Shown: positions 54,421 through 63,964 of the stretch, piece after piece
Layout: every line of letters starts with the position of its first letter
Position numbering within the stretch: the stretch's first letter is position 1
NCBI RefSeq assembly: GCF_014279795.1
Contig: NZ_CP047945.1
Span: 1,384,572 to 1,448,571 of the forward strand
Direction: 5' to 3'
From: Synechococcus sp. PROS-7-1
GTDB taxonomy: Bacteria > Cyanobacteriota > Cyanobacteriia > PCC-6307 > Cyanobiaceae
DNA length: 64,000 bases
Notes under the pieces: generated by a model
Seen by the model: the letters and a program-made list of their open reading frames with translations, nothing else
Told to the model about the DNA's origin: nothing
Databases searched by the model: none
Position numbers and translations under genes: made by a program

Positions 54421-55674
54421 CTAAGCCGCCGACCTCCGCACAGCAGGAAGCCGAAGGCTGGTGAGCCATGAGAGCAACACCAGGAGAGAGGAAGTCCAGA
54501 GGCAGGCCTGCATTCCTGAGGTGGGCGTTCCGCCGATCAGAAACACCGCACCAGACAGCAACGTTCCAACCAGACGACCAGCCGCATTGGCCATGTAGTA
54601 AAAGCCCACATTGAGGCTCACACTCTCCGCATCCGTGTAGGCCAGCACCATGTAGGAGTGAATCGAGGAGTTCATCGCAAACACAACTCCAAACGCCGCC
54701 AGCCCTCCGACGATGGCCACCGTCACATCGACCTCACGAAGAAGGGCGATGGCGATCAGGGCGGGAATCGCCGTGAGTACCGCGCTCCAGAACTGCACGG
54801 CCGATGCACCAGGACTTTCACGCTGTCCCCAGAGGCGACGCAGCCCGGGGGCTGTGCCCTGCACGATGCCGTAGCCGATCACCCAGAGGCCGAGAAAACC
54901 GCCGATTTCCCAGAACCCCCAGCCAAGGGAGGCTTCGAGAAACACCGGGAGAGCCACCACAAACCACACATCGCGGGCACCGAACAAAAAGAACCGGGCC
55001 GCAGAGAGAACATTGATCCCCTTGCTCTTCGAAAACAAAGACGAAAACGCTGGCTTGGCCTTCATCTTTCCGATCTCGCCCGGCAACACCAGGGTGACGA
55101 GAAAAGCCAACGCCAGACCCGCAGACATCCAGGCCACGGCAGCGTTGAAACTCAGTGCTGTGAGCAACACACCTCCGAGAAAAAATCCAACCCCTTTAAG
55201 AGCATTTTTGGAACCGGTGAGAATCGCCACCCATTTGAACAACTGCGTTTCCCCCTTCTGAGCATCATCCGGCGTTTCCGGAACCACTGTTTTGATCGCG
55301 CTCTTCGCGCTCATCTTGTTGAGGTCTTTGGCAATTCCGCTGATCGCCTGAGCGACCATCACGTACACCACGCTCAGAAGCTTGGGCCAGGATTCCGCGA
55401 CGGGAACCAGCATCAACAACGCCAAAATCTGCAGAAGCGTCCCGACCCAGAGGGTGAGCCGCAATCCATAACGCGCTCCGATCCAACCTCCATAGAGATT
55501 GGTGAGAACCCCAAAGAACTCATAAAAGAGAAACAGAAAGGCGATCTCGAGTGTGGAGTATCCGAGCTCGTGAAAGTGAAAGACCACCAACATGCGCAAA
55601 GCGCCGTCAGTGAGCGTGAACGCCCAGTAGTTGGCGGTCACAATCCCGTACTGCTGCAGAGCGGAGAGCTTCAC
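54421..55674 (-). CDS. arsJ: ArsJ, organoarsenical (1-arseno-3-phosphoglycerate) efflux MFS permease
   Basis: A 417-residue MFS protein with about 12 spans. The features [46 protein letters not shown] and the position beside a GAPDH identify ArsJ, which exports 1-arseno-3-phosphoglycerate. The frame extends to 55731; GTG 55674 is preferred because it overlaps the GAPDH stop by 4 bp (GTGA). The following gene is glnN. Confidence 0.92.
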
Positions 55675-56693
55675 GCGTCCAGCCCCACCACATAGCTGGT
55701 GAGGTCGGCCATCCGGCAGCTGTAGCCCCATTCGTTGTCGTACCAGGCGAACACCTTCAACTGAGTGTCGTCAACGACCATCGTGGAGAGCGCATCAATG
55801 ATTGAGCTGCGGTTGTCGTTGGTGTAGTCGCAAGACACCAACGGTCGCTCCTCGTAACCCAGGATTCCCTGCAGTGGACCGTCTGCAGCAGCTTTAAAGG
55901 CTGCATTCACCTGTTCGACCGTGACGCTCTGCTTGAGCTCAAACACCGCATCAGTCAGGGAACCGTTAAGCAGCGGTACGCGCACGGCGTGACCATTGAG
56001 CTTGCCCTTGAGCTCAGGAAAGATCATCGCGATCGCCTTGGCAGAGCCCGTGGTGGTGGGGATCAGTGAGGTGAGGCCGGAGCGGGCCCGGCGCAGATCA
56101 CTCTTGAACGCATCGATCGGCACCTGGGTGTTGGTGATGTCGTGAATGGTGGTGATCATTCCGTGCTCGATGCCGAAGCTCTCGTGCACCACCTTCACCA
56201 CCGGCGCGAGGCAATTGGTGGTGCAGGAGGCAGCGGTCACCAACCGGTTCCGATCGGGCTCATAGAGGTGATGGTTGATGCCGTAAACAACGTTGAGAGC
56301 TTCGGCGCCGGCGACGACACCCTTCACAGGACAAGCCACCACAACGCGCTTCAGCCCCAACTGATCGAAGTAGGGATTCAAGGTCTCCGGGGTCTTGATC
56401 TTGCCGCTGGCCTCGAGCACCATCTCCACACCGCGCTCGGCCCAGGGCACTGCGGTGGGATCTTTCTCGCGCGACCAAGTCAAAGAGGAACCCTCCACAG
56501 TGAATCCCTCAGCGCTGCTGCAGATATCTCGGTCCCAGCGGCCATGCACCGAGTCAAACTCCAGAAGATGGGCAGCGGTCGCGGCATCACCGGCGGGGTC
56601 ATTCACATGAACCAGCTCGATACCGGGGCGTCCCCAGAGCGCTCTGAAGACGAGGCGACCGATTCGCCCGAAGCCATTGATGCCGATCCGCAT
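55671..56693 (-). CDS. gap: ArsJ-associated glyceraldehyde-3-phosphate dehydrogenase
   Basis: A 340-residue [23 protein letters not shown] is the NAD-binding fold, and the catalytic cysteine is C157 in [10 protein letters not shown]. Beside arsJ, such an enzyme joins arsenate to glyceraldehyde 3-phosphate, giving 1-arseno-3-phosphoglycerate for ArsJ to export. The long frame to 56762 adds 23 residues without family character, so ATG 56693 is used. It overlaps arsJ by 4 bp. Confidence 0.92.
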
Positions 56694-56714
56694 GGAGGTG
56701 TGCCGTGCATTCAC

Positions 56715-56726
56715 CAAATAAATTTG
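56715..56726. promoter_or_regulatory. Candidate ArsR operator CAAAT-AA-ATTTG
   Basis: A 5-2-5 dyad lies in the 120-bp gap between the divergent gap and arsR genes. ArsR-family repressors bind AT-rich dyads overlapping their own promoter, so this is the best-placed candidate. Regulation by arsenic is inferred. Confidence 0.4.
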
Positions 56727-56813
56727 ATCAGTCGCGTGCCATCCCGCAAGTGCCTGGATCACACGAAGCGTTTCACCACCACCGCTAACGTTGAGTCATC
56801 AGCCGCCTCGCCG

Positions 56814-57146
56814 ATGCCATCCATCGAGGCCACGCAACGTTCTCTCAGTGCACCGCAGGCCTGCAGCCTTCTCAAGGCACTGTCTGACCCCCTGCGCCTC
56901 CAGGTTCTCAACCAGCTTTCCACCGGTGAGCGCTGCGTCTGCGACCTCACCAGTTCCCTCTCACTCTCCCAGTCGCGCCTGTCCTTCCACCTCAAGGTGA
57001 TGAAAGACGCGGGATTACTGAGCGACCGCCAGAGCGGGCGATGGGTGTATTACAGCATTCGGCCACAAGCGCTGAATGCCTTGCAGGGTTGGATCAAAGA
57101 GCTCACCCGCTCCTGCGAAACCCCGGCCAGCAACTGCGCCGAATGA
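56814..57146 (+). CDS. arsR: ArsR-family metalloregulator
   Basis: A 110-residue winged-helix repressor. LLKALSDPLRLQVLNQLSTGERCVCDL contains the classical metal-sensing CVC pair (C41, C43) in the DNA-recognition region, followed by SLSQSRLSFHLKVMKDAGLL. Arsenite binding would release DNA. It is divergent from the gap/arsJ pair and overlaps the next gene by 4 bp (ATGA). Confidence 0.92.
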   Translation: MPSIEATQRSLSAPQACSLLKALSDPLRLQVLNQLSTGERCVCDLTSSLSLSQSRLSFHLKVMKDAGLLSDRQSGRWVYYSIRPQALNALQGWIKELTRSCETPASNCAE

Positions 57147-57775
57147 GTCCGATGGAGAGCTCCAGTGATGATGCGCGGCTGTTCTTCCCGGCTACGCAAC
57201 GCAATGTGCATGCGATCGGAGACGTGCTGGCCGACGCCCTCCCTGCCGGTGGACTCATCCTCGAACTGGCGAGCGGATCGGGAGAACACGGCGTTGCCTT
57301 CCAACATCGATTTCCCAGGATCACCTGGCAATGCAGCGACCCCGACCCCGACCACTGCCGCAGCATCAGCTCCTGGATTGCTCACGCGGGGCTGACGTCT
57401 GCCATGCCACAACCTCTGGCTTTGGATGTCTGTGAACCCGACTGGGTGGGTGGTCTGCCAACAGCACCAGCCATGGTTGTGGCCGTGAACCTTCTGCATA
57501 TTTCTCCATGGGAATGCACGCAGGCCCTCATGCAGGGCTCAGCTCGTCACCTGCCTCCCGGCGGTCGACTTTTGATCTACGGGCCATTTCGCGCTGAAGG
57601 GAAGCATGTGAGCGAAAGCAACCAACTTTTCGACACGTCGCTGAAGGAACGCGATTCCAGCTGGGGGGTGCGCGATCAAGAGGCAGTCATCAAGGAAGCC
57701 CAAGGAGCAGGACTGTCTCTTCAAGACATTCGCTTGATGCCATCAAACAACAGGATCATCCTTTTCGAGCGCTAA
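57143..57775 (+). CDS. DUF938 SAM-dependent methyltransferase
   Basis: A 210-residue protein. FFPATQRNVHAIGDVL and the SAM motif ILELASGSGEHG, then VVAVNLLHISPWE, are typical DUF938. The physiological substrate is unknown. It overlaps arsR by 4 bp, so it is co-transcribed with it. It is not an ArsM-type arsenite methyltransferase, which has conserved cysteines not seen here. Confidence 0.85.
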   Translation: MSPMESSSDDARLFFPATQRNVHAIGDVLADALPAGGLILELASGSGEHGVAFQHRFPRITWQCSDPDPDHCRSISSWIAHAGLTSAMPQPLALDVCEPDWVGGLPTAPAMVVAVNLLHISPWECTQALMQGSARHLPPGGRLLIYGPFRAEGKHVSESNQLFDTSLKERDSSWGVRDQEAVIKEAQGAGLSLQDIRLMPSNNRIILFER

Positions 57776-57790
57776 ACATCGGAGCTTTGG

Positions 57791-58753
57791 ATGGAAAGCA
57801 CACTGATCCAGGGCTTGGGCTTTGTACTCGTCGTGCTGGCCTGCACGGCCAATGATTCCCTCCAGACCCTCGGGACATTCCTGGTCAGCAATCGGGGACG
57901 AACACCGCTCTGGTTGCAAGTGCTCTGGATCTGCTTGGCAACGGCAGCAATCCTGATTTTCGGATGGATCCGATATCACGGCGATCCGGCCTGGGATCGC
58001 TTGGGACCATTCCCTCCACCGGAGGCATTCAGCTGATTTTATCTATTCCCACCGCTAACGATTGCAGTTTTGACCTGGTGGGGAGCTCCGATCGGAACCT
58101 CGATTCTGGTGCTGTCTGCGTTTGCACCGATGCAAACAACTGCGCTGGTGAAGACATCAGCACTGGGGTATCTGCTCGCCCTGGTGATCAGCTTGCTTCT
58201 CTATGGGCTGGGGCTCTGGCTGCTGGAAAAACGGTTCAGCCGCAGCACTGAACCATCTTCAACTGCGCTGCCGGAACGGTGGCTGATCCTGCAGTGGTTC
58301 AGCACAGCTTGGCTGTGGTGTCAGTGGATGATTCAAAACGCCGCCAGCCTGTATGTGTACCTGCCGAGGCAACTGAGCTTTGAGGAACTCTTTTTAAGCA
58401 TTGCCGTGATCTGCGCGGCCCTCGCCCTGATCTTTGCCTGGGGAGGTGGACCCATCCAAACCATCATTCGCCGCAAGATCAACATCCACGACATCCGATC
58501 CGCAACATTGATCGACCTTGTATTCGGAATGATTTTGTTCACCAGGGCACTCAGCATGTCGATGATTCCCCTCAGCACCACCTGGGTGTTCCTTGGCTTA
58601 CTGGCCGGTCGGGAGCTGGCGCTGGTGGCAAGACTGCATCAATCGTCGCCTGGGCAAGCCATCAAGCAGCTGGCGAAAGATCTGTTCAAAGCCAGCGTCG
58701 GCGTTGGCGTGAGTCTGGCTGTGGCGTCGTCTCTGCAACTGGTCCTGATGTAG
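57791..58753 (+). pseudogene. PiT-like membrane permease interrupted by an in-frame TGA
   Basis: The first part runs 81 codons from ATG 57791 to TGA 58034-58036. The same frame continues without a break as FYLFPPLTIAVLTWWGAPIG to 58753. The stop most likely replaced TGG (Trp). Two PiT-like repeats are visible: ANDSLQTLGTF with TWWGAPIGTS, then the second-half IPLSTTWVFLGLLAG, resembling the AND-x5-GT and P-[VS]-[ST]-T-x patterns of inorganic phosphate transporters. It follows DUF938 by 15 bp in the arsR transcript. The family match is by eye and divergent. Pseudogene, error or readthrough. Confidence 0.7.
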
Positions 58754-59820: not shown

Positions 59821-60090
59821 TCAGAAGGTCTCTCCGATGCCTGGACCGTACCAACCGTCTGGCCAGAAATCATCGTCGTAATCCACACTCCACTGATTCT
59901 TGGGAATCGGTCCCGATGACGGTTGGGTGCCATCCAGGCAGCCATCCGCCGTGGTGAAACCACTGGAAAACGCTTCACAGGTCACAGGGTCCTGCTGCGC
60001 CAGGGCTGGCATCACCTGAAGAGCGGCGGCCAAAACCACAACGACCATGCGCATGCCCGATCTCATCACTGCTGCGATTCTGATAGGCAT
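59821..60090 (-). CDS. Small exported protein (coupled to SGNH hydrolase)
   Basis: About 89 residues. A signal peptide (VVVVLAAALQVMPALA) is followed by an acidic, tryptophan-rich mature part containing two cysteines (VTCEAF and DGCLDG). Its ATG overlaps the stop of the SGNH hydrolase (TGATG). No family recognised. It may be a small substrate-binding or envelope protein. Confidence 0.65.
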   Translation of the reverse strand: MPIRIAAVMRSGMRMVVVVLAAALQVMPALAQQDPVTCEAFSSGFTTADGCLDGTQPSSGPIPKNQWSVDYDDDFWPDGWYGPGIGETF

Positions 60091-60758
60091 CAGGTCCAGG
60101 TGAGTTGTGTTTGCAACTCCAGACCTGCCCAACGCTGGAGGGCACCCCACGACCGAACCCGCTGCTCGATCCAGTGATGACCGGCACTGTTGAGGTGGAT
60201 CCCGTCGGGCTCAATCCAGCCAAGCCAACCCGGCTCTGCCAGCATGGCCGCGTGGAGAGGCAAAAAAGGAACATCCACCTCGAGACAGGCCTCTTCAATC
60301 TGAGCTTCATGCACAGCGATGTCGTGGTTGCTGTACCAGAGGCAGTCGGCAAACGGCATCACCTGTTCATCCACCGGCGACAGGCCAAGCACAAACACCT
60401 GGGTTCGCGCTGTCATGGCGTGAAGCAACTGTTCGTATCCGAAGCGCAAAGCCTGAGCATCGAGCGGCTGCCTTCCGTCGGCACGACCAACCCTGGCTGA
60501 ATCGTTGAGCCCCACGGCCACCAGCAAAGCCTTCGGCTGTTGGCGACGCAGCTCACCACGACAGGCCCACTCCGCTTCCCATCGTTGCGACACCGACTCC
60601 AGACCGTCGCCGCGAATCCCCAGTGGGTAGATCACCGGTGCATCGGGCAGCGCCATCCAGGCACGCCGTAAGCGCTCGCACCAGCCGCCACCCTCGGTGT
60701 CTCCCCAGCCGACCACGCCACTGTCACCAATCACCACCAGTTGACGCGGATGGCGCAT
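60090..60758 (-). CDS. SGNH/GDSL-family hydrolase (cytoplasmic)
   Basis: A 222-residue hydrolase. The nucleophile lies in VVIGDSGVVGWGD, the Asn block in VAVGLNDSARVG, and the Asp-His pair in EPDGIHLNSAGHHW. Such enzymes cleave esters. No signal peptide is seen, so it acts in the cytoplasm. It starts 25 bp after the permease gene and overlaps the next gene's ATG. Confidence 0.85.
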   Translation of the reverse strand: MRHPRQLVVIGDSGVVGWGDTEGGGWCERLRRAWMALPDAPVIYPLGIRGDGLESVSQRWEAEWACRGELRRQQPKALLVAVGLNDSARVGRADGRQPLDAQALRFGYEQLLHAMTARTQVFVLGLSPVDEQVMPFADCLWYSNHDIAVHEAQIEEACLEVDVPFLPLHAAMLAEPGWLGWIEPDGIHLNSAGHHWIEQRVRSWGALQRWAGLELQTQLTWT

Positions 60759-60783
60759 GGATTCCGTCGCTCATATCGGGTGA

Positions 60784-62313
60784 TCAGCTTTGCAGCCAGC
60801 GGGTCCGGCATTGATCGCTGAACCACTCCCCGAGCAGGGTGATCAGGGCATAAGCCCCAATCAACACCACAACAGCATCCCAGTGAAAGGAGCTGAGCGA
60901 TTCCAGCAACTGCCAACCCAGTCCACTGCCACCGATCAGGCCCACCACAACGGTCTCCCGCAGAATCACATCCGTGCGATAGGCCCCATAAGCCAGATAC
61001 CCAGGGCTGCGCGGCGTGAACAGGCCGTAGAGCCAGCCGAGCCGTGCTGACGCTCCAGAGGTGGCCATGGCCTGTTGTTGATCAACAGACTGCTGCTCCA
61101 GTTCTTCGCGCAACAGGCGTCCCATCACCCCGCCGTTGTGCAATCCAAGCGCCAGCGCACCGATCGCAAGGGTTGGACGGTTGCTGAGCAGCAGAAGCAA
61201 CACAGTGAGCGGTGGGGGGATGAGACGCAGCAGCGCCCAAACAGGATTGAGAGCCACCTGCCAAAACCGCGAGGGGGCCAGCAACATCGCCAGTGGAGGG
61301 AGACCAATCGCAATCCCAGCAGCCAGCACGGTGAGCAGGAGCGTCTCAACAATCAGCGGCAACCAGGGAATCTCCGCAGCTGCTTGCGTGAGACCGCGCC
61401 AGTCCGGCAGCGCCAGTCCTTGCCAGACGACAGTGCCGGAATCCGGGAGCAGCACCTGCAGCCAGAGGCGTCCTGCGATCCCCGCCGCAATGGTTCCCGC
61501 AAGGAAGAGACACAGGCGTCGCTGGCCAGCCTGGGCCTTGCGAGTTTGACGTCGCCAAAGCGTGAGCAGCAGCTCGAGAGCAACACTGAGGAGTCCAAGC
61601 ATCCACAGCCCACTCCAGAGCTCTCTGAACTGAAGCGACTGCAGGCTGAGCTGCAGATCAGTGCCCAGGCCTCCCAGACCAAAAACGCCCAAAAGCGTGG
61701 CACTGCGCAAGGCACACTCCAGGCGGTAGCCGCCATAACTCATCAACACGGTGCCCATCGCGGGAGACAGTGCCGTGAAACAGGCTGCCAAGGGGGGGGC
61801 ACCACCCTGCAACAGAGCCTGAAGCCTGGATGGATCGAGCGCCTCCAGCTGATCACGCCACACGCGAGCCACCAGGGCCGCATAGGGAATCGTGATCGCT
61901 GCGACCGCCACCGAAGGATGCAAGCCAAGAACCTGCAGGAGCAGCAGTCCCCAGATCAGTTCATGCACCGATCGAGGCAGGGCCAGGGTGCGACGAAGAA
62001 TCATTGCTGGCCAGGTTGGCCAATTCCACGTTTGCAACAGCCGTTCTGAGGCACAACACCCAAGCAGCACCCCAAGAACCAAGCTGAGGCTCCAGCCAGC
62101 CAGAGCCATCGCCAGCGTGACCTGCAGCGCACTGAACAGAGCTGTGAGCAGCGCTGGGTCCAGGGATGGATGCACTGCTGCCGCGAGAAATGTCAACAAG
62201 ATCTCCACGCCGCCGGCATGAAGTCCGGCGACAACGGTGATCAACACCGGCAGCAAGGCCAGAGCTGGCAGCAGTGCGAGCGCGGGTGCACTGGGTCGGG
62301 CCAACGCCATCAC
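60784..62313 (-). CDS. phnE: Phosphonate-type ABC transporter permease, double-length
   Basis: A 509-residue membrane protein about twice the usual PhnE length, built of two homologous halves with about 12 spans. Each half holds a typical EAA-like coupling loop, for example LRALLQGGAPPLAACFTAL and, near the end, QQAMATSGASARLGWLYGL. The ATPase gene ends 4 bp inside its start. Confidence 0.88.
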   Translation of the reverse strand: MMALARPSAPALALLPALALLPVLITVVAGLHAGGVEILLTFLAAAVHPSLDPALLTALFSALQVTLAMALAGWSLSLVLGVLLGCCASERLLQTWNWPTWPAMILRRTLALPRSVHELIWGLLLLQVLGLHPSVAVAAITIPYAALVARVWRDQLEALDPSRLQALLQGGAPPLAACFTALSPAMGTVLMSYGGYRLECALRSATLLGVFGLGGLGTDLQLSLQSLQFRELWSGLWMLGLLSVALELLLTLWRRQTRKAQAGQRRLCLFLAGTIAAGIAGRLWLQVLLPDSGTVVWQGLALPDWRGLTQAAAEIPWLPLIVETLLLTVLAAGIAIGLPPLAMLLAPSRFWQVALNPVWALLRLIPPPLTVLLLLLSNRPTLAIGALALGLHNGGVMGRLLREELEQQSVDQQQAMATSGASARLGWLYGLFTPRSPGYLAYGAYRTDVILRETVVVGLIGGSGLGWQLLESLSSFHWDAVVVLIGAYALITLLGEWFSDQCRTRWLQS

Positions 62314-63068
62314 AGTGCGTAGAGATCCTCAAGTTCTGCAGGCGTCACAGCGGTCGCTGGAGCGTCGATGCGCAAACGTCCTTCGCGCAGGGCGAGGACT
62401 CGATCAAAACGATGGATCAAATCCGGGCGATGTAGCGACACCACCACCGCTTCCGCACCATGGATCAGGGAACCATCGGCGTTCTTTTCCAGAATGCGAT
62501 CGAGCACTTCAGCGGCAATGGCTGGGTCCAGGCTGGCCAAGGGCTCATCAGCCAAAAGCAGAGACGGTTGTTGCCGGAACAATCGGGCCAAAGCAACCCG
62601 TTGCCGTTGACCACCCGACAGCTGCTGAACGGGGCGGTCAAGACCTTCGGGACCCAGAACCTGAGGATCCAATCCAGCCTGACGCAAGCACTGCAGACAA
62701 GGCGCTGCGCCGATGGTGAACAGAAGATTCGCCAGCGCCCAGGGCAGTCCATGCCGGCCCAGCACGCCGGCATTGATGTTCTGCCCAACACTGAGTTCCT
62801 CAATCAAGCGCAGGTCCTGCCAAAGGGTGCCGATTTCACAGCGCTGACGGCGCGTGCGTTGCCGAAGACTCTTGCCGCGCCAGAGAACCGTTCCCTGGTG
62901 CGGGGTCAGGCTGCCATTGATCACGGAAATCAATGAGCTCTTGCCGGCACCGCTAGGCCCGAGAAGGGCCACGCGCTCACCGCGATGGATGCGCAACGAC
63001 AGGCTGATCAGCCGGTCTCTCTGAGAGCCGGCCAACCGCACCTGTTCAAGCTGGAGCAGGGAGCTCAA
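62310..63068 (-). CDS. phnC: Phosphonate-type ABC transporter ATPase
   Basis: A 252-residue ATPase. Walker A GPSGAGKSS, signature LSGGQRQR and Walker B LLLADEPLASLDP are clear, with PhnC-like LWQDLRLIEELSVGQNINAGVLG. It overlaps its neighbours by 4 bp on each side. Confidence 0.9.
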   Translation of the reverse strand: MSSLLQLEQVRLAGSQRDRLISLSLRIHRGERVALLGPSGAGKSSLISVINGSLTPHQGTVLWRGKSLRQRTRRQRCEIGTLWQDLRLIEELSVGQNINAGVLGRHGLPWALANLLFTIGAAPCLQCLRQAGLDPQVLGPEGLDRPVQQLSGGQRQRVALARLFRQQPSLLLADEPLASLDPAIAAEVLDRILEKNADGSLIHGAEAVVVSLHRPDLIHRFDRVLALREGRLRIDAPATAVTPAELEDLYAL

Positions 63069-63964
63069 CGAATCTTGCCGAGTTGGCGACCTACCGTCTC
63101 GATCGGCTTGTACTGGCTGGCATCGGCGGGAATGAAACGCTTAGCAGCGAACAGCTCGAGGATCGTGGCCTGGCGAGGGGTGGATGGCTGAATGGCCAGA
63201 ATCGCCTTCTGCAGACGGGTTGTGAACCCCGAACCAAAGCGCTGATCAAGATCAGGGCGCGCCACCCAGTGGTAATCCACATACTCGGGAGTTCGCCAGA
63301 TCACGCTGACCTTGTCGGTGTTCACCCGCCCCTGCTTCAGCGCGGACGTCCAGACCTGCTCATTCAAGGCACCTGCCTGGTAAGCCCCGCTTTGCACCAA
63401 CGCGATGGTGGCGTCATGACTGCCGCTGAAGCCCGCCCGGCCCCCGCTGAACTGACTGGGAGTGACCCCTGCCTTCGCCAGAAAATGCTGGGGCATCAAG
63501 CGTCCGGACGTTGAGCTCTCCGAGCCAAAGGTGAAGCGCTTCCCCCGCAAACTGGCGAGACCGTTGATGGACTGGATCGGTTGAAGACCAGCTGATGAAT
63601 TGGCGATGAACACACTGCGAAAGCGGGCATCGATATCCCGCTGCGCCAAAACCTTGGCCCCAGGGGTCTGCAGCCGCGCCTGAACTCCGGTCAAACCACC
63701 GAACCAAACCAAATCAAGGCCTCCGGTCCGAAAGGCACTCACTGCGGCGGGATAATTGCTCACCGGCACGTAGCGAACGGTCACCTTCAGACGGTCGCTC
63801 AGCTCATCGGCGAGCTGGCCGTAGAGACGATTCAAGCGCTCGGGGTTCTGATCGGGAATGGCACCGACGCGAAGCGCTGGTTTAGCGATGGACGGAAGGA
63901 CCGCCACCCACTGGCAAAAGGACAAAGCCAGGAGAGCGGCGGCCCCTCGTTCTCGGATGGACAT
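63065..63964 (-). CDS. phnD: Phosphonate/phosphite/selenate-type ABC binding protein (PhnD family)
   Basis: A 299-residue exported binding protein with a signal peptide ending near SIAKPA. Typical PhnD features include LRVGAIPDQNPERL, DLVWFGGLTGVQAR and GSESSTSGRLMP. Related proteins bind phosphonates or phosphite; closely related proteins are labelled putative selenate receptors. The ligand here is open. It begins a run of six genes. Confidence 0.88.
   Translation of the reverse strand: MSIRERGAAALLALSFCQWVAVLPSIAKPALRVGAIPDQNPERLNRLYGQLADELSDRLKVTVRYVPVSNYPAAVSAFRTGGLDLVWFGGLTGVQARLQTPGAKVLAQRDIDARFRSVFIANSSAGLQPIQSINGLASLRGKRFTFGSESSTSGRLMPQHFLAKAGVTPSQFSGGRAGFSGSHDATIALVQSGAYQAGALNEQVWTSALKQGRVNTDKVSVIWRTPEYVDYHWVARPDLDQRFGSGFTTRLQKAILAIQPSTPRQATILELFAAKRFIPADASQYKPIETVGRQLGKIR

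Follow-up and report, generated by a model that had tools for sequence, protein, structure and literature searches.

Organization of the arsenate locus

The window (the whole 64,000-nucleotide stretch of Synechococcus sp. PROS-7-1 DNA analyzed here) contains two divergent gene groups, with gap and arsJ on the minus strand and arsR, a DUF938 gene, and a membrane protein gene with an in-frame TGA on the plus strand, as given by gene calls and family profiles. The features are as follows:

54421-55674, minus strand: arsJ, organoarsenical efflux MFS transporter (NCBIfam NF033734, 579 bits vs. a cut-off of 400)
55671-56693, minus strand: gap, ArsJ-associated glyceraldehyde-3-phosphate dehydrogenase (NCBIfam NF033735, 554.5 bits vs. 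a cut-off of 450)
56713-56728, no strand assigned: operator-like repeat ACCAA-N6-TTGAT between gap and arsR (putative function)
56814-57146, plus strand: arsR, metalloregulator (NF033788, E 5.1e-28; PF01022, E 6.5e-17)
57143-57775, plus strand: DUF938 methyltransferase-like gene (PF06080, E 1.1e-60)
57791-58753, plus strand: PITL, a broken gene for a PiT-like membrane transporter (321 codons with the final stop counted; fold predicted from the WH7803 copy)
58034-58036, plus strand: in-frame TGA, codon 82 of PITL (a sense codon in the two relatives with the same gene order)
58070-58753, plus strand: open remainder of PITL past the TGA, from the first TTG; it lacks the first signature and is therefore not expected to transport

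The GTG start of arsJ overlaps the gap stop codon, giving an arsJ/gap overlap of 4 bases. The start of the DUF938 gene overlaps the arsR stop codon, and 15 bases separate the DUF938 gene from PITL. The motif ERCVCDL, with its C-V-C pair, is present in the ArsR sequence. The family profiles confirmed the layout proposed in the initial annotation, that is, arsR, DUF938, and a PiT-like gene on one strand opposite divergent gap and arsJ. Its assignment of the arsJ/GAPDH pair to an arsenate locus was upheld as well, since both proteins exceed the curated cut-offs of the ArsJ-GAPDH arsenate pathway and their genes are adjacent. In this pathway, GAP makes arseno-triose from arsenate and ArsJ exports the product. 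A report linking DUF938 to arsenic was not found in the literature searched.

Besides the arsR gene itself, an operator-like repeat lies between the divergent units; it is degenerate in the window, where it represents a one-mismatch form of the ATCAA-N6-TTGAT found in relatives. The strict form (TCAA, 5-7 bases, TTGA) is present in 13 of the 14 arsR-bearing relatives examined, with G054 as the exception, and ten of the 14 have two repeat copies 18 bases apart, one loose second copy counted. In G009, G022, and G004 the strict repeat is located in the spacer behind gap and not directly before arsR. It was absent from the 200 bases searched in each of three of the five loci without an arsR match (G014, G024, and G007). 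The window, WH7803, and G006 each contain a single degenerate copy, which in the window has one mismatch. With at most one mismatch allowed, the repeat occurs five times in the 64-kb window compared to 2.0 expected occurrences, and one of these lies in the 120-base gap-arsR spacer. The repeat is presumably similar to the published ArsR site of Synechocystis. Its conservation renders the ArsR control suggested in the initial annotation probable, and we regard it as the likely operator through which ArsR would control arsR-DUF938-PITL. In G009, an MscS-family channel gene (PF00924) is located between the operator-like repeats and arsR, and G022 has a similar-looking frame at this position (L187:7101-8126 and L195:6737-7816 for the G009 and G022 frames).

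A premature stop codon in PITL

Apart from the single TGA, the frame 57791-58753 is open, with no other stop and no indel. WH7803 and G006, which share the gene order, have a sense codon at the TGA position and an open frame of equal length, in agreement with the broken frame described in the initial annotation. The stop is also present in the whole-genome sequence of the strain, which presumably is the same assembly. The simplest reading of these sequences is a recent nonsense mutation, and the gene has very probably been knocked out in the living strain. The loss seems to be recent and restricted to the window genome among the carriers seen, since WH7803 and G006 have an intact PITL at this position and two further carriers have the gene elsewhere. 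The window-specific codon changes in PITL comprise 10 silent and 7 replacing ones, compared to 13 and 2 in WH7803, a difference that does not significantly indicate relaxed selection (Fisher p 0.12).

Although a lone stop in an otherwise undisturbed frame would fit a sequencing or assembly error, with an intact PITL in the living strain, such an error is quite improbable in a genome that consists of one contig, is scored as 100% complete, and shows nothing else hinting at low quality. Recoding of the TGA by selenocysteine insertion or readthrough would account for the frame remaining open past it but can practically be dismissed, as neither same-order relative has a stop at that position and genome searches for tRNA-Sec and SelB gave no match above cut-off and only weaker ones. 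A PITL copy of another genome (G054:C1:936480-937434; L042/L105) is split across two frames, which reflects either an assembly error or another, independent break.

PITL and the PiT fold

The PF01384 (PiT) profile did not match the joined product of 57791-58753, nor anything else in the genome, and none of the 26 rows of alignment A1 (the window protein and 25 relatives) matched it at E<=5. The same search gave matches in 10 of the 14 control genomes; across the class, 60 of 145 genomes had a match, among them one of the 14 own-family rows listed.

Structural comparison gave a different result. We modeled the intact WH7803 copy, which is 96% identical to the window protein, with AlphaFold (37 input sequences, pLDDT 81.7, pTM 0.84). 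Foldseek returned 6l85_A as the sole match to this model at E<=0.001, with a probability of 1.00. VIA-align to 6l85_A, a sodium/phosphate transporter, yielded a Z of 22.5 and an rmsd of 3.9 over 295 residues at 14% identity, and the next structure reached a Z of 5.8. A viral relative modeled on its own alignment likewise matched the PiT structure (Z 21.5 over 294 residues, next 6.7). Distant relatives bridge the two families in sequence: 27 of 28 rows of alignment A4 match PF01384 at E<=1, as do all ten distant members scanned singly, six of which are also A4 rows (E 3.9e-11 to 0.07, one of the ten above the cut-off). Profile-profile comparisons gave low probabilities. Local hhalign of PITL against PiT alignments reached a probability of 17, or 10.5 with a larger alignment, and global hhalign gave an E of 0.001 at a probability of 8.7, compared to 0.8 for the reversed alignment and 0.45 to 0.95 for shuffles (5 listed of 20). 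In this low-probability global alignment (8.7), the ND, both P-x-S-T loops, and the second D-x-x-N are in register.

The PiT-like assignment of the initial annotation is thus supported by fold and bridging relatives and not by PF01384, which does not match PITL itself. Overall, PITL is almost certainly a divergent member of the PiT/PHO4 superfamily with a predicted PiT fold. Two other identities were considered and rejected, namely an amino-acid transporter, suggested by a single PDB sequence match with A1 at chance level (E 0.019), and DUF2878, to which the N-terminal 81 residues alone scored 24.3 bits vs. a cut-off of 27 and the full protein had no match. A PHROGs search with six proteins gave nothing better than E 0.0036, and a viral structure library contained no match at E<=0.001.

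Distribution of PITL relatives

PITL relatives were detected in 29 of 149 genomes and, within the genus, in 25 of 31, some of the six genomes without a match being incomplete. The window genome contains two, the broken PITL and an intact paralogue of 47% identity at C1:725690-726646 (L035:7670-8677), which keeps the signature residues that are changed in the ars-linked clade. A phylum-wide draw produced matches in 68 of 292 genomes, 50 of which are small genomes of one family (f46) outside the window's class. In a tree of 78 sequences, from which every second viral row and L106/L107 were left out, the ars-linked paralogue forms one clade of five (window, WH7803, G006, G025, and G017; support 100/100, stem 1.3). 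The other Synechococcus-family copies make up the adjoining clade, with the exception of the long-branched row L028. We regard the ars-linked PITL as a diverged paralogue of a PiT-like gene that is widespread in Synechococcus. A TauE/SafE-family gene adjoins the paralogue in the window genome and neighbors it in 10 of the 16 paralogue loci compared.

Relatives of PITL also occur in viral contigs (L106-L186), where they are encoded in 338 of 358 pattern-matched stretches; the best 80 of the 338 were analyzed. Some of them lie beside genes that we take to encode a ribonucleotide reductase and DnaB-like, ThyX-like, and family-B polymerase proteins. In 59 distinct viral loci, a PRPP synthetase is located within 5 kb in ten, a fatty acid desaturase in seven, and a PstS-like gene in three; neighbor clusters were named by one Pfam-scanned representative, and the PstS-like protein scored below its NCBIfam cut-off. 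A tblastn search of INPHARED phages with three queries gave no PITL match. One viral copy (L106:5001-5920) has its first signature in a different frame from the rest, due to either a frameshift or an assembly error.

Signature residues of the ars-linked clade

The initial annotation had listed the motifs AND-x5-GT and P-x-S-T-T twice; we found each of them once, at residues 20 and 260, respectively, and the matching first loop at residue 100 reads P-I-G-T-S. We compared these regions across 108 sequences (34 core, 5 from the ars-linked clade, 2 g116, 8 f46, and 59 viral), leaving out the partial or split copies L001, L029, L042, L105, and L093 as well as identical duplicates. N21, D22, and S262 are invariant among the sequences that cover them. 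Position 183 is Asp in all 103 sequences outside the ars-linked clade and Asn in all five inside. Position 186 has Asn in 100 of the 103 but Ser in all five clade members, and position 102 has Ser in 98 of the 103 but Gly in all five. Relative to the rest of the family, the clade thus carries the changes S102G, D183N, and N186S. Of the aspartates of two GANDVANA-type signatures, the one in N21-D22 is kept and the second is Asn183; of the serines of the two P-x-S-T loops, S262 is kept and S102 is replaced in every clade member. Five of eight f46 members have Ala at the S102 position, so position 102 is not strict across the PITL family.

In human PiT2, D28, S113, D506, and S593 are described as critical for phosphate transport in a section of PMC3126765. 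They map to D22, S102, D183, and S262 of PITL by motif and profile register, not by superposed structure. With S102 and D183 changed, the ars-linked clade would have lost two of these four positions while under constraint, as WH7803 and G006 PITL differ by 56 silent and 19 replacing codons. This pattern points to an altered substrate or coupling and not to an idle copy, and we cautiously favor an altered specificity of the intact ars-linked protein. Given the loss of PiT2-critical residues, it is possible that PITL transports neither phosphate nor arsenate. Its three coordinated changes make the ars-linked paralogue a source of natural variants with which the choice between phosphate and arsenate in the PiT fold could be probed.

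The ars loci of relatives

Matches to arsJ were found in 86 of 149 genomes, and 22 arsJ loci were examined, the window not counted. PITL is present in two of them (WH7803 and G006); ten have arsR-DUF938 without PITL, four have arsR without DUF938, five have arsJ-gap without an arsR match, and one is cut by a contig end. In eight of the ten PITL-less arsR-DUF938 loci, DUF938 is followed by homologues of two small genes that lie 3' of PITL in the window, implying that PITL was either inserted in one lineage or lost in others. The window locus is mosaic as judged from its informative sites, with a recombination-like breakpoint near 57505, inside the DUF938 gene. To the left, 523 sites agree with G006 vs. 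199 with WH7803; to the right, 459 agree with WH7803 vs. 128 with G006. The broken PITL therefore lies in the WH7803-like block. In G025 and G017, which both lack an arsJ match, PITL is located beside unrelated genes. The comparison with other genomes thus speaks for the annotated gene context in two genomes, which have intact homologues with the same neighbors, and against it in these two others.

Proposed role of PITL and alternative explanations

Taken together, we consider it reasonably probable that PITL is a divergent PiT/PHO4 carrier of altered specificity in an ars unit and that it was recently disabled in this genome. The gene would be the last of an arsR-DUF938-PITL unit opposite gap-arsJ, and gene order and the conserved repeat suggest that arsenic entering the cell relieves this unit of repression by ArsR. 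The main defense would be ArsJ and GAP, which would form arseno-triose from arsenate and then export it. PITL, which among the ars loci seen appears behind DUF938 in the WH7803 lineage only, may be an auxiliary in arsenic stress and not an ordinary phosphate symporter. In light of S102G, D183N, and N186S, it would most likely move an oxyanion with altered specificity or coupling, until one nonsense codon presumably disabled it recently in the window genome. The arsenic-related role of the intact protein is itself a tentative prediction: only three closely related genomes, the window genome among them, carry PITL in an ars locus, and in the two other carriers, which lack an arsJ match, it lies apart from ars genes.

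Alternatively, PITL may have arrived behind DUF938 by insertion and recombination without any arsenic function, in which case its loss in one strain would be drift. This is consistent with its presence in only three arsJ loci of one lineage (the window and 2 of 22), with the two carriers that lack an arsJ match and have PITL beside unrelated genes, and with the breakpoint near 57505 in a mosaic locus. We nevertheless regard it as rather unlikely, because the gene is intact in WH7803 and G006 with mostly silent differences (56 silent, 19 replacing) and follows DUF938 after 15 bases, in line with the ArsR unit.

By analogy with PstS genes in cyanobacterial ars clusters, for which an influence on phosphate transport is suggested in part of PMC4284471, intact PITL could be an arsenate-resistant importer that sustains phosphate entry under arsenate stress. 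The PstS-like gene that lies within 5 kb of the viral relative at 3 of the 59 distinct loci would agree with such a function. However, S102, D183, and N186 are changed in the ars-linked clade, and phosphate transport in PiT2 depends critically on the residues corresponding to S102 and D183 according to the section of PMC3126765 mentioned above, making this explanation unlikely.

The initial annotation had further proposed that loss of the carrier could reduce the influx of arsenate. In E. coli, arsenate is admitted by PiT carriers, and the gene is broken in the window, but an adaptive loss is very improbable and unsupported by our data: two relatives keep PITL intact within the same ars operon, which would be unexpected for a harmful entry route of arsenate; signature residues, among them PiT2-critical ones, are lost throughout the clade of five; an intact paralogue retaining them persists in the window genome; and a phnD/C/E-like uptake cluster lies next door.

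Phosphate uptake context

This cluster, at 60090-63964 beside the ars locus, comprises a GDSL esterase and phnE-, phnC-, and phnD-like ABC genes, with the phnE and phnC models below their cut-offs. The phnD-like binding protein scores above the cut-off of a "putative selenate" model as well (337.7 vs. 250 bits). Marine Synechococcus phnD1CE together with tesA is proposed as a constitutive phosphate transporter in a section of PMC10284923, and the phn-like cluster may therefore be another arsenate door beside the detoxification genes.

The same section states that marine picocyanobacteria lack Pit, a passage of PMC3429862 that they seem to lack PHO4-domain genes, and an excerpt of PMC9361551 that PitA is found only in 20 of 57 SC 5.2 freshwater isolates, about a third. 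These statements fit the recognized PF01384 family; the predicted structure shows a PiT-fold branch below the reach of PF01384 in 25 of 31 genomes of the genus. In the literature searched, which left most subscription journals outside, we found no report of this branch in Synechococcus or of PITL in ars loci. A more speculative joint reading, which we consider possible though doubtful, is that marine Synechococcus have a Pit-type transporter, with the widespread PITL paralogue as a working secondary importer of phosphate (and arsenate), the ars-linked paralogue as its re-tooled offspring, recruited to arsenic defense with a remodeled binding site, and uncultured marine phages carrying the same transporter to supply infected cells with phosphate. 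If the widespread paralogue does carry phosphate, models of phosphate and arsenate entry for abundant ocean Synechococcus would need a further route.

Comparison with known systems

The locus resembles the ArsJ-GAPDH arsenate export pathway in that both genes pass the NCBIfam cut-offs and are adjacent and overlapping. It differs by the extra DUF938 gene and, in one lineage, PITL, and other genomes have an MscS-like gene in the corresponding locus. The PstS-containing ars clusters of other cyanobacteria, as far as described in the part of PMC4284471 cited above, likewise combine a phosphate-uptake-type protein with ars genes, gap3, and an MFS gene, and in some cases the PstS-type gene lies behind arsR, like PITL here. 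In contrast to these clusters, the protein encoded here is a predicted PiT-fold permease with diverged signatures and not a binding protein.

Viruses carrying PiT-type transporters have a precedent in the PHO4 genes of marine algal viruses, reported in a passage of PMC3429862 along with one phage-derived clone. The viral PITL relatives differ from these in being located on contigs with phage-type replication genes and in matching PF01384 only weakly; of six scanned singly, one exceeded the cut-off.

Finally, PITL shares with the PiT/PHO4 family (PF01384; Thermotoga 6l85) the predicted fold over 295 of 320 residues (Z 22.5), the ND of the first signature, the P-x-S-T loop in the second half, and the two-half organization in profile register. 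It is shorter, only 14% identical to 6l85, and below PF01384 detection, its first loop is PIGTS, and instead of GANDVANA it has ANDSLQT and, in the ars-linked clade, QNAAS.
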